A stretch of DNA of 64,000 bases, from assembly GCA_023356605.1 (NCBI GenBank), contig JAKQYE010000002.1, positions 1 through 64,000 on the forward strand. Reading direction: 5' to 3'. The translations under genes and the position numbers were made by a program. How positions within the stretch are numbered: position 1 is the first letter of the stretch; every line of letters begins with the position of its first letter. The stretch is from Trichodesmium sp. MAG_R02. GTDB taxonomy: Bacteria > Cyanobacteriota > Cyanobacteriia > Cyanobacteriales > Microcoleaceae. Below the pieces are notes generated by a model. It saw only the letters and a program-made list of their open reading frames with translations, was not told where the DNA came from and did not search any database. Below, in pieces: positions 21,117 through 37,016 of this stretch.

Positions 21117-22514
21117 CTAATTTTTCTGAATAGCATAACAAAGCCGAGCGAGTGCTATTGGATTATTTTCCATCAAATCAGTTGTCAGACTTTTTAAACC
21201 TTGTAAAAAGTGTTCCAAATTATGAGTTTTTGAACCATCATTTTCGCAATCACGATCCTCACAGTTCCAATTCTGCCACCAATCTTCTTCTCCTAAACCA
21301 TTAGCTATTACATCAACTTGGAAAAAATAAATATTTGCTTGTGGTAATTCATTGGGTTTAATTGTAGTTGTAAAATTTAACTCGCGATCGCTGCCTACTT
21401 TCCAGTTACTAAATTGCATTGAATTGAGTAGTTTTCTTTCTATTGTAGGTTCTTTTGATGAGGAAATAAATTCTTTTGTTGACTCATCATAATATTTACT
21501 TTTACTAATTTTAGCTTGTATAGAATTAGCCGATGGTGGCAATGTATACTCATTCAAAATCGGCAAACTAACCTTGTATTCAATTGGTATTTCTTCTTGG
21601 AAATTGGGGTTTATTTCTAACAACTCAATTGGTTGATTTTTGGGGAGTTCGATCGCTACTTTACCATTATTAAGAGAGAAGGGTCGCTTCAGACCTGGTA
21701 TTGGTTCGCCTGGATTTTTTGATTCACTCATAACTGATAAATTATTTATGATATTACTAGGTGAAAAGATTGTAAATTCACTGTTTTTAATTAATTCTCC
21801 TCCATCCCGCTGCAGTTTGTCAAAGTAGTAGAGAATATGTTTGTAGGGACCTAAAAATATTACATAAAAAGGCCTTAACTTTTCTATTGGTTTCCCTTCA
21901 GTGTTATAAGGAAAGTTAAAGTTATCTCTATTGCTGCCAACAACATAAACCTTTCCATTAAATTCACTTCTAATTGCTAAAATACCTGCTGCATATCCTT
22001 CTTGATTAAGATAATGTTGTCTAATTTTTTGGTTTACTGCGGTGACATCGCCTTGATTTTGATATAAATCTGTGATGAGAACTAAAAGTTCTTTTCCTTC
22101 CTTTTGTGGTGCAATAGCACCTGTTAGATTACTTGTGACTCGATCTTCGTAGTAAAATCCCTCTTTTATTGCTTCTAGGAATTTTGAACGACTGATTTTC
22201 TGTTTCTCAGGCCCTCCAACACGATAGTATTCAACTAAGTCAGATATCGAAAATGTGCGGTCTAGCAGTTGTATTGTTTTTATATAACGACTCGCACCGT
22301 TAGTTAAATATCCCGGCATAGATTCTGAGCCATCTATGTTAAGGCTAATATTGATTGGTTCTGGTGGTGCATCCAATGAGGGAGACTTATCTGTCATCGT
22401 AGGTGGATCACAAGATAGATCCTCAATAGTTTTTGGTATACAGGCTGTTGTGATACCTATTAGCATTAATAATAGAAAGGGAATTTTCCATCTTGTAATT
22501 TTTGTTGAATTCAT
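21117..22514 (-). CDS. lipoprotein with a von Willebrand A-like domain
   Basis: 465 residues. The N-terminus has a lipoprotein signal with the lipobox ITTAC (Cys25). Residues about 52-65 read ISLNIDGSESMPGYL, a DGSxS metal-site motif like the MIDAS of VWA domains, and LLVLITDLYQNQGDVT (about 145-160) matches the later VWA strand with its aspartate. The rest is beta-rich and unknown, ending in LARLCYAIQKN. It is probably anchored to the outer face of the plasma membrane or periplasmic side of the envelope. It is the last gene of the 37016-21117 cluster, 212 bases after the previous gene, so it may have its own promoter. Confidence 0.75.
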   Translation of the reverse strand: MNSTKITRWKIPFLLLMLIGITTACIPKTIEDLSCDPPTMTDKSPSLDAPPEPINISLNIDGSESMPGYLTNGASRYIKTIQLLDRTFSISDLVEYYRVGGPEKQKISRSKFLEAIKEGFYYEDRVTSNLTGAIAPQKEGKELLVLITDLYQNQGDVTAVNQKIRQHYLNQEGYAAGILAIRSEFNGKVYVVGSNRDNFNFPYNTEGKPIEKLRPFYVIFLGPYKHILYYFDKLQRDGGELIKNSEFTIFSPSNIINNLSVMSESKNPGEPIPGLKRPFSLNNGKVAIELPKNQPIELLEINPNFQEEIPIEYKVSLPILNEYTLPPSANSIQAKISKSKYYDESTKEFISSSKEPTIERKLLNSMQFSNWKVGSDRELNFTTTIKPNELPQANIYFFQVDVIANGLGEEDWWQNWNCEDRDCENDGSKTHNLEHFLQGLKSLTTDLMENNPIALARLCYAIQKN

Positions 22515-22689
22515 AATAAGTTACTTAATTTATTTTATTAATTTTCAAAGAATATAATACAGCAGTTTTTATTTGAGTAAAGTAGATTAGGAAAGCTTTA
22601 TAGAAAGTCCTTACGAGGTTTTGATTTTGACGTGAGGTCATCAATACTGAAAAGCTCTCTAATACGTTTTCATAGAAATCATTTGACTT

Positions 22690-22736
22690 TCTTTAATTCT
22701 GACTTTTGACTTTTGACTTTTGACTTTTAACTTTCT
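22690..22736. repeat. short tandem repeat (GACTTTT)n
   Basis: Seven-base units GACTTTT/AACTTTT repeated about five times just 3' of the next gene. A similar run is at 48822-48868. These are the short tandemly repeated repeats common in filamentous cyanobacteria. Confidence 0.75.
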
Positions 22737-24526
22737 TTTGTCTGATTTTCATTTTCAGAGTTATCCTCATCTTTTAACTTCCTAGATTCAAATTTTAATA
22801 CTCCCAATTCTAAAACTTTCCACTTACCTCTATCTCCTGTAGGTTCGACTTTTGCTAGCTTCAGTAATTGAAACTGCTTCAACTCCCCTGAGGAATCTCC
22901 ATAACATTCAAATAAACCTTGCACATCTTCATTATTATCTGGGTTAATGTTGGCCTTCTGTCTGGGAGCTAAATAGTCACCGCTTTCCTCAGATAATATC
23001 CAATAACGTCCCCATTTACTTTTTTCCAAAACAACTGTATCGCTACTATCATTTACTTTTGAAACTGTTGTCGGTCTCTTCGATCGCCAGCTATGATAGC
23101 CATTATAAAATTCTACCAAGTTAGCTTCTTCAGGTGATAGTGGTGGCAGAATTACTTGTGGTTCTGGGGCTGTTTCTGGGGCTGTTTCTGGGGTTGGTTC
23201 TGGGGTTGGTTCTGGGGTTGGTTCTGGGGTTGGTTCTGGGGTTGGTTCTGGGGTTGGTTCTGGGGTTGGTTCTGGGGTTAACTCCTCTTTTGTCTCTGGT
23301 ATTGGTTCTGGTGTTAGCGTTGGAGTGTCTAGGGATGCCACTTCTATCTGTATCCACTTAACTACACCACGCTCTGATAACCGCCAACTTTGACCTGGAT
23401 TAATTGGAGATACTTTAGCAGGTTTCAGGAGTAACAGTGTGTTAAACTTTTCCTGTAAACCGTGACCTTCAAATAATTGGTCAAAAGTTTTTTGATTATG
23501 TTTGTTAAGTTTGATCTGCTGTTTAGGAACCAAATAATTGTCACTTCCTTGGGAAATTATATAATAGTTTCCCCTTTTGTCAATTTCCAAAACTATCTCC
23601 TGAGTAGATTGACTATCTGAGACTGTTATTGCTGTTTCTGTTTCTAATAAGGAATTTGGGTTTGCATTATAAGTTGCTGCTAATTCAGCTTCTTGCCAAC
23701 TTAGATTTATATCTGCTAACGATAGAGGAGGTGATACCTCTTCTGGGTAGGAAGGTTGTTCAATTTTCTCTAGTCTTTCTGTCAACGAACTAATCTGTTG
23801 ATAAATTTTCTCCAAGATTTTGTTTTGATTACTCTGTTGAGACAATTTTGCCGAAAGCTTCTGCAAGTTTGTTTCTATGATTGATAACTGAGATTTAAGA
23901 TGCATTAGCTCTTGATTTCCTACTGCTACTTGCTCATTTAACTTTTCGACTATTTCTGGCAACTTAGATTCTGAATTTTCCATAGGATCGATTTTTTTGG
24001 GTAATTTTTCTAAAATATTCTGCAAATTTGTTTCTATTTTTGATAACTGAGATTTCTGAATATCTTGTTCCTTATTGCCCGCTACTACTTCCTCGGTCAA
24101 ATTATTCAATTTTTCTACTATTTCTGGTGGCGATCGCTCTTGTTGGGTTTCCTGGTATTCTGCTTGTAGTTGATTATACTTTTCTGTGTAATCATCTAAT
24201 TCTGATTTCAATCGCGATCGCTCCTGTTGGGATTGTGAGAATTTTGTTTGTAACTCTTCGTATTCTGCCCTCAATTGTTGTAACTGAGATTCCTGTTCCT
24301 CTGTATGGGCCAATGCTTCTAAGTTTGGTGGCTTTCTCAATGAGGACTGCCACTTTCGTATCGCCCACTTTTCTGCTTTTTGAAGGGCCTCGGACGAACT
24401 CAACCCCGAATCTTCAAGAACTTCATCACCACTGGTGGAAGAAAGCCCTAAATACCAACCGCATTTGAGACAAAAATTCACCTGTTGCTGTTGATATTCT
24501 GTATTGCAAACCGGACAATTTGGCAT
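22727..24526 (-). CDS. zinc-ribbon, coiled-coil protein with two copies of the cluster-specific domain
   Basis: 599 residues. The N-terminus is a zinc ribbon (CPVCNTEY...FCLKCGWYLG). Residues about 70-260 are coiled coil. A first copy of the roughly 120-residue cluster domain spans about 270-395 (core RGNYYIISQGSDNYLVPKQQ, end WRLSERGVVKW). A TPEP repeat linker (residues about 403-455, encoded by about eight 12-bp repeats) leads to a second copy at about 465-585 (core WGRYWILSEESGDYLAPRQK, end WKVLELGVLKFES). No signal peptide, so probably cytoplasmic. The ribosome site GGAAAG precedes the ATG. Function unknown; it looks like a multivalent adaptor. Confidence 0.82.
   Translation of the reverse strand: MPNCPVCNTEYQQQQVNFCLKCGWYLGLSSTSGDEVLEDSGLSSSEALQKAEKWAIRKWQSSLRKPPNLEALAHTEEQESQLQQLRAEYEELQTKFSQSQQERSRLKSELDDYTEKYNQLQAEYQETQQERSPPEIVEKLNNLTEEVVAGNKEQDIQKSQLSKIETNLQNILEKLPKKIDPMENSESKLPEIVEKLNEQVAVGNQELMHLKSQLSIIETNLQKLSAKLSQQSNQNKILEKIYQQISSLTERLEKIEQPSYPEEVSPPLSLADINLSWQEAELAATYNANPNSLLETETAITVSDSQSTQEIVLEIDKRGNYYIISQGSDNYLVPKQQIKLNKHNQKTFDQLFEGHGLQEKFNTLLLLKPAKVSPINPGQSWRLSERGVVKWIQIEVASLDTPTLTPEPIPETKEELTPEPTPEPTPEPTPEPTPEPTPEPTPEPTPETAPETAPEPQVILPPLSPEEANLVEFYNGYHSWRSKRPTTVSKVNDSSDTVVLEKSKWGRYWILSEESGDYLAPRQKANINPDNNEDVQGLFECYGDSSGELKQFQLLKLAKVEPTGDRGKWKVLELGVLKFESRKLKDEDNSENENQTKES
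23165..23285. repeat. 12-bp tandem repeat encoding TPEP
   Basis: About eight units of GGTTCTGGGGTT, with a related start of GGGGCTGTTTCT. Coding on the - strand as Pro-Glu-Pro-Thr. The copy number probably varies between strains. Confidence 0.85.
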
Positions 24527-24582
24527 TAGTTATCTTTCCATTTATAAATTTACTTCAAGTCTACTGCTTATTAATAAACTAA

Positions 24583-24687
24583 TATAGCAGTCGAAGTATA
24601 GCACTACGGGTAAGTAAGAAGTCAGAAGTAATCTCTGACTGAATTTCAGCATTTAGTAATGTCCTAACCTTTGCTTCGACTGCTATA
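24583..24687. mobile_element. MITE with TATAGCAGTCGAAG ends, providing a stop codon
   Basis: 105 bp with ends TATAGCAGTCGAAG and CTTCGACTGCTATA. Its right end lies inside the 3' end of the next gene. The intact sister gene at 28342 stops directly after GVLQFY; here the element continues the frame with SSRSKG and supplies the stop. It inserted at a TA, as expected for IS630/Tc1-type elements. Confidence 0.85.
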
Positions 24688-26256
24688 AAATTGCAGTACT
24701 CCACGTTCCACAACCTGCCAAGTTTCACCTCTGGAAATAGCAGACACTCTCGCTGGTTTTATCAGTTGAAACCCGGAGTATCCAGACCGATATCCCTGAC
24801 ATTCAAATAAGTTTGCAACTGTATTCAGGTTATACTCATTAATTTTGATATTATTTTTAGGAACCACATAATCAATCCCACCCTCATTTAATATCCAATA
24901 GTTTCCCCTACGAGCTTTCTGAAGAATTGCACCTTGAGCACTACCATCAAGACGTTGGTCAATGCGACGTTGGTCAATGCTTTGGTCCGTTTCCGAGACC
25001 TCTATAGCATTTCTTGATAACAAACGGGGGTTTTGCTGATAGGTTAATATTAATTGAAGATCCGACGAGCCAAAATATTGATGGGTAGGTATTTGTGGAT
25101 TCATTTGAGGTTCTGGTGTTACTTGGCTAGTTAAATGATTGGTTGTTATTCGAGATTCTCTGTGAACTCCAGCTACATTGTCTGAAGTCCTTAGTTTCTG
25201 ATTTTGTTGGAGCTGGTTTATTTGATTTTGTAGGTTCCTTGATTTAATATCCCATCTTTGATCAATTTCTTGTTGTAATTGCCTACAAATTTCCCCTATT
25301 CTATCATTTACTACTTGAAGAATCAACTTTTTATTATCGACATTATTACCTGGAGTTTGGGCTTGCAGATCTTGTTGGAGCGTGATTATTTGATTTTGTA
25401 ATTTTTCCCTTTCATCCTCTCCAATTTTAGACATTTTGATGTTATTAATTTCACTTTCTTCTAGTTTTGATAATTGAGACTGCAACTGCGACAACTTTTT
25501 ACTTAACTCGGGCTTCAATTGTGCCAACCTCTCAAACTCGGCCTCCAAATTGGAAGATCGTTGCTCCTGAAGCACCCCTGCCTGTTCCAACTGTTCTAAA
25601 CGATCCGTCAAATTACTCCGCCAGCGATCGCCTTCCTCCAACTTGGCCAAAGTCTTCTGTAAGCGATCGTAAGCCAACTCTGCCACCTGAGAAGCGAAGC
25701 GATCGCGCTCGTCCCTGGCCAACCTCAACTCAGATTCCAGTTTTTCTCGCTCCTCCTTTACTCCTTCCAGTTCCGACTGTAGCCGAGATAATTGAGAATT
25801 ACCACCAAAATCTAACACCCCCCGCTCCTCCAACCGCCACTGATCTCCCCCTGGCGTCAGAGAAACCTTAGCCAGTTTAACCAGGATAAACTCCCGCGCA
25901 TCCTCTGAAAGAGAACCATTGAACTTGAAGAAAGATTTAACAGTATCCTTGTTAAAAGAATTAATTCGGAAATTTGCTTTAGGTAATAACCAGTAACATC
26001 CCTTCTCCGTAACCATTACCCAATAATTCCCATTTCGCTCTTCACCGAGCAAAACTTCTGAATTAGAATATCTCCCTCCCCTAAAGTCAATTTTTGAAAC
26101 CTTAATAGCCTTTCTTGAGAGAACCCTCGGCGCATAATTATAAGCTTCGATCAATTCATCTTCAGACAAACTTATCCAACCCCGTGGGAGAGTTTCCAGG
26201 GTTTTCGTCACCCGCACCGAGTTAGTTAATTCTGAGGAATAATTATCTGGTTTCAT
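24664..26256 (-). CDS. coiled-coil protein with two copies of the cluster-specific domain
   Basis: 530 residues. Residues about 25-160 are one domain copy (NGNYWVMVTEKGCYWLLPK, then WRLEERGVLDFGG). A strongly charged coiled coil follows at about 160-350. The second copy is at about 390-524 (RGNYWILNEGGIDYVVPK, LFECQGYRSGYSGFQLIKPA, WQVVERGVLQFY). The last six residues (SSRSKG) come from a MITE. The C-terminal 200 residues are almost identical to those of the lipoprotein gene at 28342, so the two genes have recombined or duplicated. There is no signal peptide and no recognised enzyme motif. Confidence 0.82.
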   Translation of the reverse strand: MKPDNYSSELTNSVRVTKTLETLPRGWISLSEDELIEAYNYAPRVLSRKAIKVSKIDFRGGRYSNSEVLLGEERNGNYWVMVTEKGCYWLLPKANFRINSFNKDTVKSFFKFNGSLSEDAREFILVKLAKVSLTPGGDQWRLEERGVLDFGGNSQLSRLQSELEGVKEEREKLESELRLARDERDRFASQVAELAYDRLQKTLAKLEEGDRWRSNLTDRLEQLEQAGVLQEQRSSNLEAEFERLAQLKPELSKKLSQLQSQLSKLEESEINNIKMSKIGEDEREKLQNQIITLQQDLQAQTPGNNVDNKKLILQVVNDRIGEICRQLQQEIDQRWDIKSRNLQNQINQLQQNQKLRTSDNVAGVHRESRITTNHLTSQVTPEPQMNPQIPTHQYFGSSDLQLILTYQQNPRLLSRNAIEVSETDQSIDQRRIDQRLDGSAQGAILQKARRGNYWILNEGGIDYVVPKNNIKINEYNLNTVANLFECQGYRSGYSGFQLIKPARVSAISRGETWQVVERGVLQFYSSRSKG

Positions 26257-26344
26257 TGTTTTTTTATGATATATATATAGCCTTTTTTACTGGTCAAATA
26301 TTATCGAGTTTATTTAACGAAATTTCAATATATTTTACTACCTA

Positions 26345-28161
26345 TTAATCAAATTGTAGTATACCACGTTCGACAAGCTGCCAAGTTTCACCTTTTGAAA
26401 TAGCAGATACTTTTGCTGGTTTTATTAGTTGAAACCCGGAGTATTCAGATTGGTATCCCTGACATTCAAATAAATTTGCAACTGTCTTACTGTTATATTC
26501 ATTAATTTTGATGTTATGTCTAGGAACCATGTAATCAATATCAGCCTCATTTAGTATCCAATAGTTTCCTCTGCGAACTTTCTGAATAATTACTGCTTGA
26601 GTGCTACTTATACGAGGTTGAACCATGCTTCGGTCTGCTTCTGAGACCTCTATAGCATTTTCTGATAAAGAACGGGGATCTTCTTTATATATTAACATAA
26701 ACTCAAGATTGGGCAAACCTCCAGCTATATTATCTGGAGTCTTTAGTTGCTGATTTTGTTGGGGCTGGTTTATTTGATTTGGTAGGTTCCTTAATTCAAG
26801 ATCCAATCTTTTACGAATTTCTTGTTGTAATTGGCCATGAATTTCCTCTTTCACTGCTTCAAAAATCAGCTTTTTATTATCGGCATTGTTGTCTGAAGTC
26901 TTTAGTTGCTGATTTTGTTGGAGCTGGTTTATTTGATTTTGTAGGTTCCTTGATTTAATATCCCATCTTTGATCAATTTGTTGTTGTAATTGCCTATAAA
27001 TTTCCCCTATTCTATCATCTACTACTTTAACAATAAACTTTTTATTATCAACATTATTACCTGGAGTCTTGACTTGCTGATTTTGTTGGAGATAGTATAT
27101 TTGACTTTGTATTTTTTCGCTTCAGCATCCCATGAGTTATACATTTCTTTTAATCTATCATCTACTTGATCAATAAGTTCTTGAGTGTCTAAAATACTGG
27201 CTTTATTAACAGCATGATTCTGTTGTTTGGTATTTCCAAAGTTTTTTTTATACCTTGCCCAAATCCGTTTTATTTTCCTTCTATATGGCCCAATATAAAG
27301 ACATAAAACGATTAAGACTGTGGCTAGTACCAGCACTATTATTATAAAATCAAATATCACTTTTCTTCGTATAGTTTTAAACTGATTTAATTGATTATAA
27401 AATTCTTGTTTTTCAGAGTTTAAATTCTTAATTTCTTCCTCATTCTTCTTAGCAATAGCGGCTAATTCACTATTTCTTGCTTCCAAATCAGCTATTTTTC
27501 TGGTTAAGTTATCAATATTTGTTGGGGGAGCAGATGGTTTGATAAATCCACCAATTTCACCAATATTCCTAATTTGAGCTTTTAACTGTTCGCTATTTGT
27601 TGTCAATGAGCTATTGATTTCTGTTGTAGTATTTGGACCTAATGCTCCGTAATTATTGTCATTAGGACTTTGAAAAATACCCAAATATATTTGAACTTTA
27701 CCAATTTCGTCTTCGCCTAATCCACCTTTTAATTTTTCAGTTATTTGTTTAATGTTGTTGATATTTTGATTTATATCATTAAAATTTTGGTCTAAATTTT
27801 CTAGATTTATTGTTGGCAAAATTTGATTTTTATACGTCTTAACTTTTTTTTCCAGTTCTACTAGTCTTTGATTAACTTGAGAACTATTTACTAATTCCCT
27901 GTTTTTGGAACCCTCTCTTACTGCAGCAATGTCCTTAATAAAATCATCTAATAATGTTTGAAATTCATTGTTTGTTTTTTGAACATCATCAAAGCTGTTC
28001 TTTGAATTTCCCTGATCTGGATTTAAAGGAATTGATGTTGTCGAAGGACTAGATTTGGTTTCTGGCCCTGTTTGTACACAAGCCACTAAAGAACCAGACA
28101 TTAATACCAAAGACAGAAATAAACTGTATGTGCTTTTCCAACTGTGTATGCTTTTCCACAT
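26345..28161 (-). pseudogene. frameshifted copy of the cluster lipoprotein gene
   Basis: The first part (28161-27120) encodes a lipoprotein signal (LVACVQTGPE), a glutamine/asparagine-rich region, a coiled coil and a membrane span (IIIVLVLATVLIVLCLYI), and is very close to the intact gene at 28342-30093. At about 27115-27120 one base is missing against the sister sequence (GAAACGACAAG versus GAAGCGAAAA). The sister reading then continues in another frame, open to 26345, with the cluster domain at the end (RGNYWILNEADIDYMVPRHN, WQLVERGILQFD). Both halves remain otherwise open, so the break is recent, or the two parts might be made separately. Compared with the sister it has one extra coiled-coil repeat and lacks the HYQYFGSSD-type linker. 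Confidence 0.8.
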
Positions 28162-28341
28162 AAAAACTCACTTTTTTCTTCAAAATACATCCCCATAATA
28201 AGGTTTGTAAACCCTTATAGCACTGTTCCAAAATTAGTATTTTGGGAGAAGTCTAATAAACGAACTAATAAACTATTGTATCCTTTTCACTGCGCAATTA
28301 TCTAACTGAGAATTGACTTCCCCAAAATATTCCATTGCCCA

Positions 28342-30093
28342 TTAATAAAATTGCAGTACTCCACGTTCCACAACCTGCCAAGTTTCACCTCTGGAAATAG
28401 CAGACACTCTCGCTGGTTTTATCAGTTGAAACCCGGAGTATCCAGACCGATATCCCTGACATTCAAATAAATTTGCAACTGTATTTAAGCTATGCTCATT
28501 AATCTTGATGTTATTTTTAGGAACCATGTAATCAACCCCACCCTCCTGTAATATACAATAGTTTCCCCTGCTAACTTTCTGAAGAATTGCTCCTTGACCG
28601 CCACCGAGACGACGTTGGTCAATGCTTTGTTCTGTTTCCGAGACCTGTATAGCATTTTTTAACAAAGAACGGGCGTCGTGCTGATACATTGATATCAATT
28701 GCAGATCTGACGACCCAAAATATTGATGGGTAGGTATTTGTGGGTTCATTTGAGGTACTGGTGTTACTTGGCTAGTTAAATGATTGGTTGTTCTTCGAGA
28801 TTCTCCGTGAACTCCAGCTACATTGTCTGAAGTCCTTAGTTTCTGATTTTGTTGGAGCTGGTTTATTTGATTTTGTAGCTTCCTTGATTCAATATCCCAT
28901 CTTTGTTCAATTTCTTGTTGTAATCGCCTATAAATATCCCCTATTCTATCATCTACTACTTTAACAATAAACTTTTTATTATCAACATTATTACCTGGAG
29001 TCTTGACTTGCTGATTTTGTTGGAGATTGTATATTTTATCTTGTATTCTTGTCGTTTCAGCATCCCATGATTTATACATTTCTTCTAATCTATAATCTAC
29101 TTTATCAATAAGTTCTTGAGTGTCTAAAATACTGGCTTTATTAACAGCATGATTCTGTTGTTTGGTATTTGTAGAAGCTTTTTTATATCTTTTCAAAAGC
29201 GGCTTTATTCTCCTCCAATCTTGCCAAATATAAACACATAAACCACTTAAAAATACAGCTATTACCAGCACTATTATGACAACAAATGTCTCTAATTTTA
29301 GTCTATTTTGAAACTGATTTAATTGATTATAATTTTCTTGTTTTTCATAGTTTAAATTCTTAATTTCTTCCTCATTCTTCTTAGCTATAGCGGCTAATTC
29401 ATTATTTCTTGCTTCCAAATCAGCTATTTTTCTGGTTAAGTTATCAATATTTGTTGGGGGAGCAGATGGTTTGATAAATCCACCAATTTCACCAATATTC
29501 CTAATTTGAGCTTTTAACTGTTCGCTATTTGTTGTCAATGAGCTATTGATTTCTGTTGTAGTATTTGGACCTAATACTCCGTAATTCTTGTCATTAGGAC
29601 TTTTAAAAATACCCAAATATATTTGAACTTTACCAATTTCGTCTTCGCCTAATCCACCTTTTAATTTTTCAGTTATTTGTTTAATGTTATTGATATTTTG
29701 ATTTATATCATTAAAATTTTGCTCTAAATTTTCTAGATTTATTGTTGGCAAAATTTGATTTTTATACGTATTAACTTTTTCTTCCAGTTCTACTAGTCTT
29801 TGATTAACTTGAGAACTATTTACTAATTCCCTTTTTTTGGAATCATCTCTTGCTGCAACGACGTCATTAATAAAATCATCTAATAATGTTTGAAATTCAT
29901 TGTTTGTTTTTTGAACATCATCAAAGCTGCTCTTGAAATTTACCTGATCTGGATTTGAAGTACTTGATGTTGTCGAAGAACTAGACGTTGTTTCTGGCTC
30001 TGTTTGTACACAAGCCACTAAAGAACCAGACATTAATGCCAAAGACAGCAATAAACTGTATGTGCTTTTCCAACTATATATGCTTTTCCACAT
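28342..30093 (-). CDS. membrane-anchored lipoprotein with coiled coil and C-terminal cluster domain
   Basis: 583 residues. The signal peptide ends in a lipobox (LVACVQTEPE, Cys28). Residues about 45-265 form a helical or coiled-coil region with NDINQNINNIKQITEKLKGG. One membrane span lies at about 269-292 (VVIIVLVIAVFLSGLCVYIW). A second coiled coil follows, then the roughly 120-residue cluster domain (RGNYCILQEGGVDYMVPKNN to WQVVERGVLQFY). With the lipid anchor outside and the membrane span after it, the C-terminal domain should be cytoplasmic, linking the envelope to the cytoplasmic adaptors of the cluster. It starts 26 bases after the zinc-ribbon gene, so the two are co-transcribed. A frameshifted paralogue follows. 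Confidence 0.82.
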   Translation of the reverse strand: MWKSIYSWKSTYSLLLSLALMSGSLVACVQTEPETTSSSSTTSSTSNPDQVNFKSSFDDVQKTNNEFQTLLDDFINDVVAARDDSKKRELVNSSQVNQRLVELEEKVNTYKNQILPTINLENLEQNFNDINQNINNIKQITEKLKGGLGEDEIGKVQIYLGIFKSPNDKNYGVLGPNTTTEINSSLTTNSEQLKAQIRNIGEIGGFIKPSAPPTNIDNLTRKIADLEARNNELAAIAKKNEEEIKNLNYEKQENYNQLNQFQNRLKLETFVVIIVLVIAVFLSGLCVYIWQDWRRIKPLLKRYKKASTNTKQQNHAVNKASILDTQELIDKVDYRLEEMYKSWDAETTRIQDKIYNLQQNQQVKTPGNNVDNKKFIVKVVDDRIGDIYRRLQQEIEQRWDIESRKLQNQINQLQQNQKLRTSDNVAGVHGESRRTTNHLTSQVTPVPQMNPQIPTHQYFGSSDLQLISMYQHDARSLLKNAIQVSETEQSIDQRRLGGGQGAILQKVSRGNYCILQEGGVDYMVPKNNIKINEHSLNTVANLFECQGYRSGYSGFQLIKPARVSAISRGETWQVVERGVLQFY

Positions 30094-30119
30094 GATAACT
30101 AACCTCTTAGTTCAATAAA

Positions 30120-31229
30120 TTAACCAATAAATTCCAGTTTCCCTGGCTCGGACAGTTGCCACTTTTCTTCTCCAATAGAAGAAACTTTAGCAGGCTTTAA
30201 TAGTTCAAATTTACCCTTAGATCCTTCACTATTGACACCTTGACACTCAAACAACTTTTTCAGGGTATCCATGCTATATTCATTAATGTTTATTGTATCG
30301 CTAGGAACTAAATACTGCGAACTACCTTGTTTTAATATCCAATAGTTGCCCCGGCGCTTTTTTTCCAGAACTGATTTACCAATACCTAAACGACTGTTAT
30401 CAATACTCTCTGTTGCTGCTGAAACAGTTATCGCATTTTGTGATAAAATATCACGTTTTTTTTCGTCCTTGTAGTCTTTCAACAACTGTTCTTCTTCACT
30501 CAGAGGTAATTGATATTTTCCTTCCTCCTCTACTTCTCTGGTGGTATTTAGTTCTGTAGATGTTTGCAACTTTACTTGCGGGTCTATCGTTGTGGTAAAT
30601 GGCAGATATTCTGGATTATTTTTGAACCATTCTCCAAACAGACCAATCAACTCTTTGATTGGCCTCAACTCATCTTTCAACTGTTGTTGCAATTCCTCTT
30701 TGATTTTTGATATCTCATTATTAATTTGGTTATTTTTTTCTCTTTCTGCTTCTAAAAAAGCAATATTGTTGTTCTGCTTCTGAGTTAGTTCTTGCAACTG
30801 AGATTGGAATGGTGTTAATATTTCCTCTTCCAACTGTCGTTGCAATTCCTCTTTGAGTTTTGATATCTCATTATTAATTTGGTTAATTTCTTCTCTTTCT
30901 GCTTCTAAAGAAGCAGTATTGTTGTTCTGCTTCTGAATTAGTTCTTGCAACTGAGATTGGAATGGTTCTAACAATGGTCCTAACATTTGAACCAATTGCT
31001 CTTTTATATTATACTGTGGTTGGGGAGCATATGCTGATAGTTGGGGAGCATATGCTGATGGTTGGGGAGCATATGCTGATGGTTGGGGAGCATATGCTGA
31101 TGTTTCTCTAATATTGTCAAACCCTTGAGGTTTCTCGCCAGTTAAACTATCATGCAAAGGATGACCACAAGACCGACAAAAATTATCGTCCTTGTTTACT
31201 TCAGCCTGGCACTTTGGACAGTTACTCAT
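30120..31229 (-). CDS. zinc-ribbon coiled-coil protein with cluster-specific domain
   Basis: 369 residues. The N-terminal zinc ribbon is CPKCQAEVNKDDNFCRSCGH. Four SAYAPQP repeats (about 43-70, from a 21-bp DNA repeat at about 31017-31100) follow. Two near-identical coiled-coil blocks (QSQLQELIQKQNNN and QSQLQELTQKQNNN) come next. The C-terminal 120 residues are the cluster domain (RGNYWILKQGSSQYLVPSDT, LFECQGVNSEGSKGKFELLK, WQLSEPGKLEFIG). The ribosome site TAGGAA precedes the ATG. Same plan as the 22727 protein (zinc ribbon, coiled coil, domain), so probably a cytoplasmic partner. Confidence 0.82.
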   Translation of the reverse strand: MSNCPKCQAEVNKDDNFCRSCGHPLHDSLTGEKPQGFDNIRETSAYAPQPSAYAPQPSAYAPQLSAYAPQPQYNIKEQLVQMLGPLLEPFQSQLQELIQKQNNNTASLEAEREEINQINNEISKLKEELQRQLEEEILTPFQSQLQELTQKQNNNIAFLEAEREKNNQINNEISKIKEELQQQLKDELRPIKELIGLFGEWFKNNPEYLPFTTTIDPQVKLQTSTELNTTREVEEEGKYQLPLSEEEQLLKDYKDEKKRDILSQNAITVSAATESIDNSRLGIGKSVLEKKRRGNYWILKQGSSQYLVPSDTININEYSMDTLKKLFECQGVNSEGSKGKFELLKPAKVSSIGEEKWQLSEPGKLEFIG

Positions 31230-31542
31230 ATTTCCTACTAAGCTCCTTAACTTCTCTAAAATGGTATATTGCGACGAATTATTAAATCATTTTTACAGCT
31301 AGTCATTAAAGCTATCTAACACATCCTACTAGACCAACAAATCTCAAATTGTGCATTACTACGGATTGATAAATCTCTTTTATAGTATTAATTTAAACCC
31401 TCTAAAGCACCCTAAAAGTTTTGTTACAATAACCCAAATTAAGCAAATTAATATGATTGCAGATTCAGACATATCTAGTAGTATCCCTAGCAGCCGAATT
31501 TCTGGCTGCCAGTATGGAGACTTCCAGCCAGAATTAAACTAT
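31230..31542. other. intergenic within the cluster, nothing recognised
   Basis: 313 bases between the large ATPase gene and the zinc-ribbon gene. It may hold a promoter for the downstream part of the cluster. No repeat or hairpin stands out. Confidence 0.4.
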
Positions 31543-34500
31543 CTACTTACCTGCCCACTCCTTAGCTAAAACATGTAATAGAGCTTTCAGCCCAATAATA
31601 AAAGGCGGTTCCACACGAATATCATCCGTTTCTCCCTTCATATTCAACAAAACATTTGTCAACTCCCTCTGGGTATTTCGCCAAAGAGTCTGGTTATAAG
31701 TAGATTCTGGTTCTGCCCCTGGTTCGTCCCCCAGTTCATAATCCTGTAGCGGGAGAATTTCCTCAATCTCCAACTCCTTCAAAGATACATGAAAATCATC
31801 TAGAAATGTTCTTAACTGTACTAAATCAGGAATTTTTAACTCCCGAATATTTCCCTCAAACTCCAAGCGTTCGCTCCAGTCGATGGGATTACCATTAATT
31901 TCACAATCCTCTCCTGCAATCAACGGATCTTTAGTTTTCTTCCCTAATCCTGTCAACCTAGTACGACCCAAGACCAAACCACAAGCTACCTCGTCTTTTG
32001 GTCTCTGACTCAATCTTGTTTTTTCCAATATGCGATCTTCAAATCCAGACCCTTTAGTCAACATCTGACTCAGGAGATCGCTAACTTCCGAAGAAGGAAG
32101 AAACTTACCCCTTTCAGCCAACCAGTTTAATAGTCGAGAACCATTTCCGCCAATATAAACAGGAGTAATTTCGCGACTCTGGTATTTTTTCTCTTGTTCA
32201 AGAACTCCCAAGATCGTCCCCACATAGTAATACAATCCCCCCATGCCAATTGCCATTAGCTGCAGCAAACCTTGAAACTTCGGATCGTCCTCTGCAAAAT
32301 CTCTTTTATTTTTCAGCCAATTTTCACTTTCCAGACGTAGAAATACATCCAGCTTGGCACTAAACTTGTCTTTAGTTAATCGATCCCAGTCTGTCAAATT
32401 CTGCTCGAATAGCTGGGAGAAAAAATTTGGATTCAATTCTAAGAAATCCGATAACAAATGACGACCAGCCAATAAAACCGAACATTGATGAATGAGCTCG
32501 TTGTTGTACCAAACCGAAATATCGGAAGTTCCACCTCCCATATCAATACAAGTTGTTCGGATTAAATCATGTTTTTCCTGGTCTGCAAAATATTGAGCGA
32601 TCGCCAAACTCTCAGTTTTGAATAAACCTACATCATCTGACTGCGGGCAAATGTGTTTAATTCCAGTTTGAGCTTGAAGTTCCTCAGTCAAATCTTGCCA
32701 AGTCTTCGCATACCTATTTTTATCACGACGAGAAAAAGCCGTAGGATAGGAAATACACCACTGAATTTGTTGGACTCCTTCCTTGGCCGCAACCGCGCTT
32801 ACATGTAAGGCTAAATGTTTCAAAAACAATTTGTTAGGATTGTAATTTTTCCACTTCAAGTCTGTTTCTATCCATCCCCTGAGCGGTTCAAACCTGTTGC
32901 GTTCAGGAACATATATTCTGCCATCAATAATTGGGAAACCTTGGTTTTCCGTCTTATTTGGCTTCCCCCTAGTTGTCAGCACGCTAGACAAGGGTAACGG
33001 TTTGTCAATCGGGATAAAGCTTTCCGGGACAAAGTATTCAAACAATACAGGCCTGCGGGTTTCTGTCAAAACCTCCGTCACCTTCAAGTGCAAATTTTCC
33101 AACTTCAATGGCTCCGATAAATCGTTACTATTGACATAGATATTGGTGAAAGAAGTGCCGAAATCTACCCCCACTTTCCATCGTTCTCCCAGCCTAATTT
33201 TCTCTGGACTTTTCAGCATAATCAAGCCAATGGGACTTCCAGAACTATCCTGACACTCAATGAAACTAGGAAATTCTTCTAGGTGAGTTATTTGATAAGC
33301 ACCCCTACCATCTATGAAAGGATGACGCTCTTTCGCTTCCGGTAGATACACTTGAAAAGTATCCTCTCCAAATTCAGCATCGTAATAAAAAGCATAATAA
33401 GAGCGCCATCCATCCGCCAGGAAATTAGGCCATACTTCCAATACCGGAACTTCCGGCAAAGCATTTTTATCTTCTATGGGATAATCTTTGGAAATCCGAT
33501 AATTCTGAGGTTGCCGAGAGTCATTTTTCATCCCTGACAAAGGCAAGTCCAGGGTTACCCGCACTTGAGGTCCATCACTACTATTTATTTGAGCAAACTC
33601 GACCTTAGCGATTAAATCTTCCGGAGTAAAATAGTCGAGAAGTACAGGATTGATAGGTATCAGGGGCGTAATACTTTTACCCTGAAAAATTAACTTCGTC
33701 CCCGGAGGTAGAAAAGCTCCCGGTAGAGCATCTTCTTGGTCTACAAACCGAAATTTATCCATAAATAAATCCTTGGACTCCTTCCACTCAACATCTGGCC
33801 AAGTAATTTTCTTTTCACGCAAGTCTTGTATTTGTAGGGAAGCCAGAGTTTGCTCCTCGTGTATCCAAATATCTTGAGGCGGTTTTCCCCAAGCTGAAGA
33901 AATGTTCTGGTCAATAATCAATAGAGGTTTTACCTGTCCCTTACTCTTACTAGGAACTAAGCGAACCCAAGAAGACTGAGCCTCAGCTTTCACCGGACGA
34001 TTAATACCTTCCAACACCCCTCGATTAATGGCCACACCAAAAAACTGAGGATTATTGCTCAAACTCAGGCCCTGCTCCATCGGGCGAGACCCCAAACTAT
34101 TTTGGAAGTCATCTAGCAATCCGCCGATCGCATCAATTGCCTCTGCTTGGCCCTCATAGGAAGGATCGCCTAAAATTCTCCGCAGATTTTCTAACCAGCG
34201 CCAGAGGAGAGCCTTCTCGCTGACATTGAGATGTGGTTGAGGAGACTCCAACTGACCCGTCAGTTTGTTCCACCAAGGCAGGCCATTCCATTTTCCTTCT
34301 TCAGAGGGGGCCACTATAGTACTGGGAGTAGTAAGACCCACAGGTAGACCATCCCACATAAATATATAAATGTCTTCCCAGGGATTTTTGGGTTCTGAGG
34401 CATACAGGGCATTAACTGGATCAGGTAGCAGTTCGTATAGAGAACGGGCGAAAGGGTTTTGATCTTTTACTTGCCCCAACTCCAACAATTGAGCAGTTAT

Positions 34501-34818
34501 GGGAAAGCGGCGTACTTCTGCCAAAGCAACCGCCGCCAACATCCCCTGCCACTGTTGGACCATTTCATCTCGGATGGGATAATAGGGATTATGTAAAGCC
34601 ATCTCCATGGATAAGGGACGAGCCCACATAGTCGGTACAGAGCTAACACTTTTCATTTCTCCTGGAGCTTTATAATCCAGACTAGAGGCCACATCTTGAA
34701 AGGCTTTTGCTGGTTGTGCCTCCCATTTACCAGGAGTATCGCTGGATTTCACATCACTATCCCGCTTTAACTTGGGCAGGACTAAAACGTAACTTTTGTT
34801 AACTTGTGTTCCTGTCAT
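31543..34818 (-). CDS. large protein with an Hsp70/actin-fold ATPase core
   Basis: 1091 residues. The first 540 residues are unknown and mostly globular, with tryptophan- and proline-rich stretches. The ATPase follows: phosphate 1 WKVGVDFGTSFTNIYVN (about 546-562), phosphate 2 TTCIDMGGGTSDISVWYN (about 752-769) and adenosine motif PVYIGGNGSRLLNWL (about 882-896). The last 130 residues are again unknown. No signal peptide is present. Known Hsp70/actin superfamily members use this fold for ATP-driven conformational change or filament formation. The position directly downstream of a tubulin-like gene and the unusual N-terminal half set it apart from DnaK, MreB and ParM. A relic omega-RNA and a 7-base tandem repeat lie before the start. 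Confidence 0.85.
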   Translation of the reverse strand: MTGTQVNKSYVLVLPKLKRDSDVKSSDTPGKWEAQPAKAFQDVASSLDYKAPGEMKSVSSVPTMWARPLSMEMALHNPYYPIRDEMVQQWQGMLAAVALAEVRRFPITAQLLELGQVKDQNPFARSLYELLPDPVNALYASEPKNPWEDIYIFMWDGLPVGLTTPSTIVAPSEEGKWNGLPWWNKLTGQLESPQPHLNVSEKALLWRWLENLRRILGDPSYEGQAEAIDAIGGLLDDFQNSLGSRPMEQGLSLSNNPQFFGVAINRGVLEGINRPVKAEAQSSWVRLVPSKSKGQVKPLLIIDQNISSAWGKPPQDIWIHEEQTLASLQIQDLREKKITWPDVEWKESKDLFMDKFRFVDQEDALPGAFLPPGTKLIFQGKSITPLIPINPVLLDYFTPEDLIAKVEFAQINSSDGPQVRVTLDLPLSGMKNDSRQPQNYRISKDYPIEDKNALPEVPVLEVWPNFLADGWRSYYAFYYDAEFGEDTFQVYLPEAKERHPFIDGRGAYQITHLEEFPSFIECQDSSGSPIGLIMLKSPEKIRLGERWKVGVDFGTSFTNIYVNSNDLSEPLKLENLHLKVTEVLTETRRPVLFEYFVPESFIPIDKPLPLSSVLTTRGKPNKTENQGFPIIDGRIYVPERNRFEPLRGWIETDLKWKNYNPNKLFLKHLALHVSAVAAKEGVQQIQWCISYPTAFSRRDKNRYAKTWQDLTEELQAQTGIKHICPQSDDVGLFKTESLAIAQYFADQEKHDLIRTTCIDMGGGTSDISVWYNNELIHQCSVLLAGRHLLSDFLELNPNFFSQLFEQNLTDWDRLTKDKFSAKLDVFLRLESENWLKNKRDFAEDDPKFQGLLQLMAIGMGGLYYYVGTILGVLEQEKKYQSREITPVYIGGNGSRLLNWLAERGKFLPSSEVSDLLSQMLTKGSGFEDRILEKTRLSQRPKDEVACGLVLGRTRLTGLGKKTKDPLIAGEDCEINGNPIDWSERLEFEGNIRELKIPDLVQLRTFLDDFHVSLKELEIEEILPLQDYELGDEPGAEPESTYNQTLWRNTQRELTNVLLNMKGETDDIRVEPPFIIGLKALLHVLAKEWAGK

Positions 34819-34852
34819 ATCAGTTATCAGTTATCAGTTATCAATTATCAGT
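34819..34852. repeat. short tandem repeat (TTATCAG)n
   Basis: Four units of TATCAGT/TATCAAT directly upstream of the large ATPase ATG, on which no clear ribosome site can be seen. Confidence 0.6.
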
Positions 34853-34943
34853 ATCGACAGCTAAAGCCAGAGGCTTGAAATACCTATGACATTTTTTTCA
34901 TCCCCTTGAAAAGGGAGGCTTGAAACCTGATTTTCTGGCCATA

Positions 34944-35010
34944 ATTGATATCCTCCCCGTTCTAAAGTCCCGGGGGAAGTTATACTGGGCCTTAACTCAA
35001 GAGCTGGTTG
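34944..35010 (-). ncRNA. omega-RNA-like right-end remnant inside the cluster
   Basis: On the - strand: CAACCAGCTCTTGAG, then CCCCCGGGACTTTAGAACGG and GGAGGATATCAAT. The layout matches the block at 16871-17033. It lies in the 252-base gap between the tubulin-like and large ATPase genes, so an IS605-type element once sat here. Confidence 0.45.
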
Positions 35011-35070
35011 AAGTTTTGTACTTAGCACCCGCTCTGGGCTCCGTAAGTAGTTGCTAACTTAAGTTTTTCC

Positions 35071-36543
35071 TTAAATCCTAGAGGCCATATATACGGACTT
35101 AGCCAGTCCTATAGTCCCACCGGGTGGAGTAGCCTTAAGTCCATCCTTGAGTTTTTTCACCGTATCTCGGGATTTTTTGCCTTTATCGCGACTATCCCCA
35201 ACTATCAGATTTGGCAGTTCATTTCCGGCCAATTTTTTGTTAGGGGGGAAAGCATCGGCTTGAAACAAAGCGATATTATCACCTTCGCACTGATGCAGAG
35301 AGTACAGCCAGCCCAAATAATCTTCACACCAATTATTAATTATTCCAATAGCTTCCTGTTGGTCAACATCAGAAAAGTCCGGTTTAGTCCCCCCAGATTT
35401 ACTGCCAGTTTGGTAGAATTCCATCATCCAGGGAGCCAACCTTTGAAAGCGAGCATTTTTTTCCTTTTTCGCTTCTTCTAGTTCGGGAGCAATTTCTGCT
35501 AGCCATGTAAAAGCAAATCTGGTGGCATTCACTAACTCTGGTTGGACTTCTGCCTTGTCTGGGATATCGTCCCAGGAAATAGTCCCACTCTGCTGGCGAG
35601 TCATCAATATCACAGACCCTTTGGCTGTGGATGAATCTCGCCAAAAGTTACGCGCAGCCAGTGCGGCGTATAGTTCTAGGAAATGGGGATCGTTGCGCTG
35701 ACTATCTTTACCGATACTAAAGTTGACTCGGGATAAGTTTTGATTACCTAGGAGATAAACTCGGTCAAAGATTTCCTGACCTTGAGTGACGTAATAACGA
35801 AGGGCCGCTTCCGTGTTCAGTAAAAACTGCTCGGAGCGAGCGTAGACCCCATCTGGGTTATCCCCGGGTGTTGGAGCAAAACCAAAATAGGGGAGTACAA
35901 AGAGGCAACCAGTTTGAACCCTATCACGTACCTTGATTCTCTTCAACTTATTATCGATTAGGCGGGCAATAGTCGGCAGTCCAGAAGCTCCAGTTCCCCC
36001 AAATATAGATCCACAAAGAAAAATTTTCGGCTCTTTACCGCTACCCGTGTCTCCCTGAATTTCCTCAATCAAGCTTCCCCAAGGCTCTTGCTCCAACCTG
36101 TCCAAATCTACCTGACTCATCACTGCTGCACCAATGGCCGGTCTGCCCCTAAATCCTACATCTAAGTTAGCTTCCCGTTCTTCTTTAGTGTAAAGGACAT
36201 CGAATAAATTGGCCAAAGTCGGTTGGTTTTGCTTGATTGTGTTGTAGTTAAAAAATGTTCTGAGTTCTTTCTCTTGGGCAAAAGGCGACCAATGATCGAA
36301 AGATTCGATTTTGCTTTTCATCCACCCACAATGTGTTTTGTCCCCAGTAGGCATCAAATCATAAGTTCTTTTATAGGTACCGATGCTAGTCCTAGCACGA
36401 GCTAGATTTCCATTAGTTTCATCTGCATCTACAAATAAAACCTTAATGGGTTCTTCAGTAAACAAACCCATAGCAGCTAATTTAGCCACTGCTTCAACAC
36501 ATTTAGCCCCCGTTCCACCAATTCCAATTAGATAAAGTCCCAT
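35071..36543 (-). CDS. tubulin/FtsZ-superfamily-like protein
   Basis: 490 residues. It opens with MGLYLIGIGGTGAKCVEAV, a nucleotide-binding loop like that of tubulin/FtsZ, and residues about 181-191 read GSIFGGTGASGLP, close to the tubulin signature GGTG(T/S)G. This fits the 'tubulin like' family (Pfam Tubulin_2) known from bacterial gene clusters. FLCGSIFGGTG and VLPYFGFAPTPGDN are typical of that family. The C-terminal 150 residues are alpha/beta and unclear. It begins 2 bases after the membrane-protein gene, so it depends on the same transcript. Tubulin-fold proteins bind GTP and often polymerise; neither has been shown here. Confidence 0.8.
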   Translation of the reverse strand: MGLYLIGIGGTGAKCVEAVAKLAAMGLFTEEPIKVLFVDADETNGNLARARTSIGTYKRTYDLMPTGDKTHCGWMKSKIESFDHWSPFAQEKELRTFFNYNTIKQNQPTLANLFDVLYTKEEREANLDVGFRGRPAIGAAVMSQVDLDRLEQEPWGSLIEEIQGDTGSGKEPKIFLCGSIFGGTGASGLPTIARLIDNKLKRIKVRDRVQTGCLFVLPYFGFAPTPGDNPDGVYARSEQFLLNTEAALRYYVTQGQEIFDRVYLLGNQNLSRVNFSIGKDSQRNDPHFLELYAALAARNFWRDSSTAKGSVILMTRQQSGTISWDDIPDKAEVQPELVNATRFAFTWLAEIAPELEEAKKEKNARFQRLAPWMMEFYQTGSKSGGTKPDFSDVDQQEAIGIINNWCEDYLGWLYSLHQCEGDNIALFQADAFPPNKKLAGNELPNLIVGDSRDKGKKSRDTVKKLKDGLKATPPGGTIGLAKSVYMASRI

Positions 36544-36545
36544 AA

Positions 36546-37016
36546 TTATTCGCTAAAAAAACGACGCAAGTGAATTGAACCCGGGGGAACAAACTTTAAA
36601 CCCCCAGGAGTACTGGTTGCAGTTGGCAACCAAAAAAGTAATAAGATGTCCAACACAAAAAAGATAGTCAAAAACACAAGTGTATCATTGCTACCTTGAA
36701 AAAAGCCTATGGCCACACAAATACTCAATACGGGAAATAGCAAAAATATCCACCATGCTACCATCCACCGGGCCACTTCTTTAGCTTGGTGAGCTTTTGC
36801 GTTAGCGGTTATTAAATACCAAATTATAGTTGACAGTACCGATACTACGAAAACTACAATTCCCCCAGGGTTGTAATAATTATTGATCCAATTCCCTACA
36901 TCAATATCTGATATTCTTAGGATTCTGCTTCTATAAAGAAAAGGTTGTACTAGGAACATTACGATTAATCCTGTCAGGCTAAAAAAAATGATCCGAATAA
37001 TTTCCGATGCTTTCAT
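36546..37016 (-). CDS. small membrane protein, first gene of the tubulin/actin-like cluster
   Basis: 156 residues from the ATG at 37016 (MKASEIIRII), chosen because TAGGAGATTCA precedes it; a TTG start seven codons upstream is less likely. Four hydrophobic spans can be seen: IIFFSLTGLIVMFLVQPFLY, IVVFVVSVLSTIIWYLI, WWIFLLFPVLSICVAIGFF and LVFLTIFFVLDILLLFWL. No family is recognised. The tubulin-like gene follows after 2 bases, so this protein may anchor it to the membrane (inference). Confidence 0.75.
   Translation of the reverse strand: MKASEIIRIIFFSLTGLIVMFLVQPFLYRSRILRISDIDVGNWINNYYNPGGIVVFVVSVLSTIIWYLITANAKAHQAKEVARWMVAWWIFLLFPVLSICVAIGFFQGSNDTLVFLTIFFVLDILLLFWLPTATSTPGGLKFVPPGSIHLRRFFSE

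Follow-up and report, generated by a model that had tools for sequence, protein, structure and literature searches.

The stretch of DNA analyzed here, hereafter the window, comprises 64,000 nucleotides of Trichodesmium sp. MAG_R02 (contig JAKQYE010000002.1), and the question raised by its positions 21117-37016 is whether a tubulin-like GTPase and an actin/Hsp70-like ATPase encoded side by side belong to one system, and what such a system may do. The locus holds nine genes or gene remnants on the minus strand. In the order of transcription these encode a four-span membrane protein (TM4), the tubulin-like protein (TUB), the ATPase (here called ATP), a zinc-ribbon protein (ZR369), a lipoprotein (LP583), a frameshifted copy of LP583, two further proteins (D530 and ZRd599), and a VWA lipoprotein. 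The closest named relative of ATP is that of T. erythraeum GBRTRLIN201, with 95% identity. The original prediction, made from the sequence alone, had proposed an undescribed system assembled at the membrane, with a function that could not be told; the strand and the coordinates that it gave were borne out, and the site that it proposed for the assembly, the inner face of the plasma membrane, is plausible. The analysis identified the cluster as a variant of the FtsZl1/VWA kind of system that lies outside canonical FtsZl1. We give a probability of about 0.5 to the reading that its products form an assembly, switched by nucleotides and located on the inner side of the envelope, that acts upon surface structures in response to stress or conflict signals.

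The prediction was to be abandoned if no conserved gene neighborhood existed in related cyanobacteria, which is clearly not the case. A scan of 84,980 species for ATP returned 80 loci, nearly all of them cyanobacterial, and the order VWA, TM4, TUB, ATP, and D proteins (those carrying a shared domain, D) recurs in about 60 genomes. Among the 64 loci with at least 3.5 kb of upstream sequence, TUB was found near ATP in 60, TM4 in 58, and VWA in 52, and the first D profile identified D proteins near ATP in 53 of the 62 loci with at least 2.5 kb of downstream sequence, several of the rest having divergent D domains. The VWA gene adjoins TM4 in most relatives, whereas in the window it stands at the opposite end of the cluster. 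The distribution is patchy: ATP was present in 23 of 292 genomes sampled from the phylum. Loci also occur in spongiarum-type and marine picocyanobacteria, outliers were found in Nitrospirae, Bacteroidales, Syntrophomonadaceae, and Spirochaetaceae, and five loci are plasmid-borne. A viral or phage origin was rejected, as no relative was found in IMG/VR or phage records. A further ATP cluster, in a record labelled Euryarchaeota (L128), is nested within the picocyanobacteria in the tree and is likely a mis-binned contig.

Several observations tie TUB to ATP. The recurring gene order and the agreement of their distance matrices go beyond chance; the matrices correlate with r = 0.97, compared with 0.89-0.93 for the other pairs among ATP, TUB, VWA, and TM4, a correlation that is expected from co-inheritance and by itself is no proof of interaction. 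In two uncultured bacteria, a member of the Syntrophomonadaceae (L148) and one of the Spirochaetaceae (L149), TUB and ATP form a single reading frame of 1660 and 1704 residues, respectively, with TUB at the N-terminus. Upstream of both fusions lie genes for a VWA lipoprotein and a membrane protein, and downstream genes encode zinc-ribbon proteins as well as coiled-coil proteins whose C-termini are D-like; the D-like domains of loci L147-L149 matched the cyanobacterial D profile weakly (29% probability, E 6e-4). The proposed association of a tubulin fold and an actin fold with membrane anchors is thus upheld by a conserved neighborhood and by a natural fusion of the two NTPases. To our knowledge, tubulin- and actin-fold NTPases have not been described before as one polypeptide. 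In three Synechocystis-type loci (L050, L051, and L053), an extra gene lies between TUB and ATP, and we take it to resemble the Uma2 family.

The assignment of TUB to the tubulin superfamily was confirmed by a match to the Pfam family Tubulin_2 (PF13809) with 35.5 bits (cut-off 27), and the predicted loops, T1 (G-x-GG-x-GAK, read as GGTGAK in the prediction) and T4 (GGTGASG), were invariant in 15 relatives. A clear T7 loop was not found by eye, and Pfam identified no FtsZ C-terminal domain in TUB. A profile comparison with canonical FtsZl1 by hhalign (97% probability, E 4.6e-11) supports common descent, while PF13809 scores are mostly 200-380 bits in canonical FtsZl1 and 19-39 bits in the TUB clade. 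Canonical FtsZl1 proteins, mostly of 1050-1170 residues, carry an extended coiled coil and a helical C-terminal domain that are lacking in TUB, which has 490. TUB is a sister branch of FtsZl1 within the wider Tubulin_2/FtsZl1 group, and it stands outside canonical FtsZl1 because neither its size nor its C-terminal architecture agrees with the latter.

The predicted Hsp70/actin ATPase was likewise recovered. The AlphaFold2 model of ATP has a mean predicted local distance difference test (pLDDT) score of 88, and its core (residues 544-961), which is predicted to adopt the actin/Hsp70 fold, aligned best with MreB (Z 20.6, root-mean-square deviation 3.5 over 277 residues), with FtsA, actin, and DnaK (Z about 18) close behind. 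The phosphate 1 (DFGTS) and phosphate 2 (D-x-GGGTSD) motifs show little or no variation, and the same holds for the GG pair in the adenosine motif. Residues 65-540 were also mostly predicted with confidence. The core has the nucleotide-binding domain in common with Hsp70; only about 130 residues follow it, and some matches to Hsp70 structures reach residues 1065-1073. Pfam profiles gave no match to HSP70 and matches below the cut-offs to FtsA (18.2 against 31.8 bits) and MreB (10.3 against 27), the weak FtsA match being present in all 18 ATP proteins searched. An identity with the virulence factor SrfB was dropped, as it was matched by one of the 18 only, with an E value of 0.16. The host genome carries a second, partial ATP on contig C153 (L056:7973-9199), which is 78% identical to the window gene and is cut by the contig end. 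Its phosphate 2 loop reads CIYMRRETSD instead of CIDMGGGTSD, and from its sequence this copy is probably decayed.

Parts of such a system have been known since 2010, when FtsZl1 was described with VWA, GTPase, and OmpA partners and a role in membrane remodelling was proposed (Makarova and Koonin 2010, PMC2875224), and three matching Synechocystis genes were knocked out in 2021, with an effect on phototaxis (PMC9880817), so that "undescribed" was too strong. The window cluster resembles the FtsZl1/VWA/OmpA clusters (PMC2875224) in its Tubulin_2-type GTPase, its VWA partner, and its membrane-associated partners, but unlike them it regularly has an actin/Hsp70-fold partner, TM4, and D proteins. 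Both kinds of locus also include, in a subset, the same pair of ZorA-like (MotA/ExbB-type) and ZorB-like (OmpA-type) genes. Such genes were found at 14 ATP loci in the tree, lying upstream, downstream, or on the opposite strand; these loci include some of Gloeobacterales and Nitrospirae, and two Microcystis loci retain only the ZorB-like gene; at least seven gains or losses are required to account for this distribution. The same subfamily occurs at canonical FtsZl1 loci. For example, of two further Tubulin_2 loci in the host genome, one (contig C54, L057:8810-16371) encodes VWA, a canonical FtsZl1 of 1099 residues, and the ZorA-like and ZorB/OmpA-like proteins in a row. The genes are called ZorA/ZorB-like only, because their matches to the Zorya models of PADLOC and NCBIfam, while clear, score far under the NCBIfam cut-offs. 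Unlike in Zorya, ZorC and ZorD were not seen among the neighbors checked.

The D domain, of about 130 residues, is single in ZR369 and LP583 and double in D530 and ZRd599, and also occurs in a remnant (26345-26854). The ZR369 copy served as the profile seed, and the profile recovered D in relatives. Five proteins or gene copies had been predicted to share a new domain; the shared domain is real, but two of the supposed proteins are one frameshifted copy of LP583. Over 1274 bases this copy shares 92% of its DNA sequence with LP583, running on in another frame, and its counterpart in another Trichodesmium genome (L070) is an intact frame of 427 residues. The two frames thus derive from a single gene that is either broken or misassembled. 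The ZRd599 counterpart in L070 also has two D domains, and in the window these are separated by a TPEP repeat, encoded by a run of 12-base repeats (23186-23285). The D array is turning over by duplication: DNA identity between LP583 and the 3' part of D530 reaches 88%. The D domain of LP583 (129 residues) was modelled by AlphaFold2 with a pLDDT of 91 and a predicted template modelling score of 0.83. Foldseek gave no match in the PDB below E 0.7, the best VIA-align match had a Z of 2.4, and no significant match was found among viral structures; the fold is thus confidently predicted and without a match among solved structures, which does not prove it to be new. D is found C-terminal to zinc ribbons, C-terminal to coiled coils that carry a lipobox and a membrane span, or doubled, and it is also fused to ATP paralogues. 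These architectures and the fusion suggest that D may be a docking adaptor.

A function could be narrowed from published genetics and from domain fusions, for which reason the earlier verdict that it cannot be told was too pessimistic. In Synechocystis sp. PCC 6803, Sll0445 (Tubulin_2), Sll0446 (FtsA-like), and Sll0447 co-fractionate with the pilus proteins Slr2015 and Slr2018, the interaction of Sll0445 with both is supported by affinity purification-mass spectrometry, and insertion mutants of sll0445, sll0446, and sll0447 are impaired in phototaxis (PMC9880817). The genes belong to a seven-gene unit, sll0443-sll0449, which has a CRP site and falls in the SyCRP1 regulon together with pilus genes (PMC2633013). 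A lexA mutant shows several members raised by about 4-6 fold (PMC4759255), and mutation of comFB deregulates Sll0445 and Sll0446 (PMC12313861). The unit was not described as a system with relatives in PMC9880817 or PMC2633013. We infer its orthology to the window cluster because two loci of the genus Synechocystis (L049 and L122) encode VWA, TM4, TUB, ATP, and then D-type proteins, and L049 agrees with sll0443-sll0449 in gene order, in domains (VWA, TM4, Tubulin_2, FtsA-like, and three D proteins), and in its number of genes, seven. Synechocystis-type ATP is about 33% identical to that of the window, and the seven genes lack zinc-ribbon D proteins. The label DivIC given to the third Synechocystis protein (PMC9880817) was not reproduced, and D domains were found instead.

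Further clues come from joins to predicted conflict modules. The predicted NTP-dependent conflict systems comprise DO-GTPase, MoxR-vWA, and EACC1-caspase classes, among which rare tubulin effectors were noted, and tubulin or HSP70 themes occur without overlap in DO-GTPase systems (Kaur et al. 2020, PMC7159879). Domains of all three classes were found joined to the TUB-ATP machine in some cyanobacteria. In Xenococcus (L130), an EACC1-associated-type caspase (148.9 bits, cut-off 140) is fused to TM4, and in Planktothrix (L046 and L101) a caspase replaces the N-terminal region of an ATP core. In Phormidium OSCR (L039), TUB and ATP are separated by iSTAND, MoxR-like, and CoxE-VWA genes, and ATP carries a fused MoxR-vWA adaptor of 249 residues. 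These three genes are also found in Calothrix (L114), where it is TUB that bears the adaptor (37% identity to the Phormidium adaptor, E 2e-43), although the assembly has this TUB in two parts. The adaptor, which has no Pfam match, occurs in the 12 others retrieved (L234-L245) directly after or within the CoxE-VWA protein and before varied effectors, including FGS- and FHA-like sequences recognized by eye. In Microcystis viridis (L036), DO-GTPase genes (35 bits, cut-off 27) continue from the D genes without a break. AAA_35/WD40 genes are also inserted at several loci, and they carry little weight as they are common in cyanobacteria.

Taken with the parts of the cluster, their conservation, and the intact NTP-binding motifs, the fusion of TUB with ATP and the module fusions form the basis for a mechanism, to which the pilus-protein co-fractionation and impaired phototaxis of the presumed Synechocystis orthologues are added from the literature. 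From these we infer in what proportions the parts combine, that D docks them, what triggers the assembly, and how it acts. TUB and ATP would form one complex, which D proteins, as lipoprotein/transmembrane or zinc-ribbon coiled coils, would dock to the inner membrane beside TM4. The VWA lipoprotein may provide a periplasmic or outer arm, and in some lineages a ZorA/ZorB-like, peptidoglycan-binding motor pair may be added. Once triggered, the assembly would act on the envelope and on its surface structures, type IV pili for example. A stress or conflict signal would most likely be the trigger; it could be transcriptional in Synechocystis, through cAMP-SyCRP1 and LexA, and in other lineages it could come directly from caspase, MoxR-vWA, or DO-GTPase modules that are fused to the machine or joined to its operon.

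Several points weigh against this reading. The window locus has no ZorA/ZorB beyond coiled-coil matches, and its genes include no DO-GTPase or other conflict module, so that, unlike the systems of PMC7159879, it lacks their core switches. Each conflict-module join was found in one or two genomes only, and cyanobacteria are rich in such genes. The Synechocystis mutants also showed altered photosystem II kinetics, and their phenotypes come from insertions for which no complementation is mentioned (PMC9880817), so the effects may be indirect. The link to Synechocystis PCC 6803 itself is by gene order, gene number, and domains.

The same genetics could instead describe an accessory devoted to phototaxis and to motility by type IV pili, in which TUB and ATP organize or power pili and the conflict joins are incidental, an explanation that we regard as rather unlikely. 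Trichodesmium glides, which counts in its favor. So do the Sll0445-Slr2015/Slr2018 interaction and the phototaxis defects (PMC9880817), the regulon common to the operon and pilus genes (PMC2633013), and the comFB deregulation (PMC12313861). A strict prepilin-signal pattern matched none of 1188 reading frames at 80 named-genome loci, however, and the caspase and MoxR-vWA adaptor fusions are not expected of a pilus accessory. The system is also present in spongiarum-type and marine picocyanobacteria, uncultured Bacteroidales, clostridia, and spirochaetes, lineages in which type IV pilus motility is unlikely. As a separate observation, three prepilin-like starts lie downstream at one locus (L045).

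If the joins to all three conflict classes of PMC7159879 are given the most weight, the cluster becomes an immune or programmed-death system of its own, whose envelope arm senses phage or damage and whose TUB-ATP switch leads to death or membrane disruption. The ZorA/ZorB-like partners, the patchy occurrence, the five plasmid copies, and the degenerate extra copies agree with this, but the core has no toxin or nuclease, its TUB, ATP, and VWA match no PADLOC defence model, ZorC and ZorD are missing from the neighbors checked, and the phototaxis phenotype arises without phage; we consider it improbable. A cytoskeletal or cell-division variant resembling FtsZ-FtsA, which would position the septum or plasmids, appears very improbable. 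It is suggested by the combination of a tubulin fold with an FtsA/MreB-like fold and by the published DivIC label (PMC9880817), which gave way to D domains here. The system is dispensable and patchy, and TUB shows neither an FtsZ C-terminal domain nor, by eye, a clear T7 loop. The bearers are expected to have FtsZ as well.

Table 1. Features of the cluster in the window.
Feature	Coordinates	Strand	Basis
TM4, four-span membrane protein, 156 residues	36546..37016	-	hydropathy: four spans, as predicted
TUB, divergent Tubulin_2 GTPase, 490 residues	35071..36543	-	PF13809 match; invariant T1 and T4 loops
ATP, 1091 residues: N-terminal region and predicted actin/Hsp70-type ATPase core (544-961)	31543..34818	-	AlphaFold2 fold; conserved motifs
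ZR369: zinc ribbon, coiled coil, D domain	30120..31229	-	Zn_Ribbon_1, 28.1 bits (cut-off 25)
LP583: lipobox (C28), coiled coil, transmembrane span (262-293), D domain	28342..30093	-	
Second LP583 copy, frameshifted (frames 27022-28161 and 26345-26854)	26345..28161	-	DNA identity
D530: D domain, coiled coil, D domain; no membrane anchor	24664..26256	-	two D matches
ZRd599: N-terminal CxxC zinc-ribbon-like motif, coiled coil, two D domains	22727..24526	-	translation
VWA-type lipoprotein: lipobox, DGSxS metal ion-dependent adhesion site (MIDAS) motif	21117..22514	-	

Among the remaining features of the locus (Table 1), the predicted VWA-like lipoprotein held up: its MIDAS motif (DxSxS) reads DGSES, and the motif is present in 56 of 58 relatives. 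In an alignment with 13 relatives, D61, S65, M66, and the T148-D149-L150 motif were invariant. The Pfam VWA profile gave no significant match. PADLOC matches of the coiled-coil proteins (LmuB, JetC, and ZorA tails) were judged to be coiled-coil artefacts. A scan for CRP sites upstream of the window operon gave matches at chance level, and promoter and terminator scans gave counts near those of shuffled sequence and were uninformative.

What is new here is the system as a whole, the ZorA/ZorB-like partners that some lineages add to it, and its joins, by fusion or within an operon, to all three classes of predicted NTP-dependent conflict systems. Tentatively, and as something possible rather than probable, the tubulin GTPase and the actin-superfamily ATPase may constitute a stoichiometric, sometimes fused, envelope-docked switch that is plugged into immune modules of the caspase, MoxR-vWA, and GTPase kinds. 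It would then be a mixed tubulin-actin effector in bacterial immunity, with an adaptor of new fold to dock it. The two great families of cytoskeletal NTPases, with tubulin and with actin folds, are here naturally fused. The cluster also brings together subjects that had been separate: the FtsZl1 loci linked to "membrane remodelling", motors of the Zorya type, the NTP-dependent conflict systems, and a Synechocystis operon for phototaxis that had lacked an explanation. They become one system that is testable in a tractable, non-pathogenic model cyanobacterium. If true, this would help explain the purpose of bacterial FtsZl1-type systems, a question that dates from 2010.

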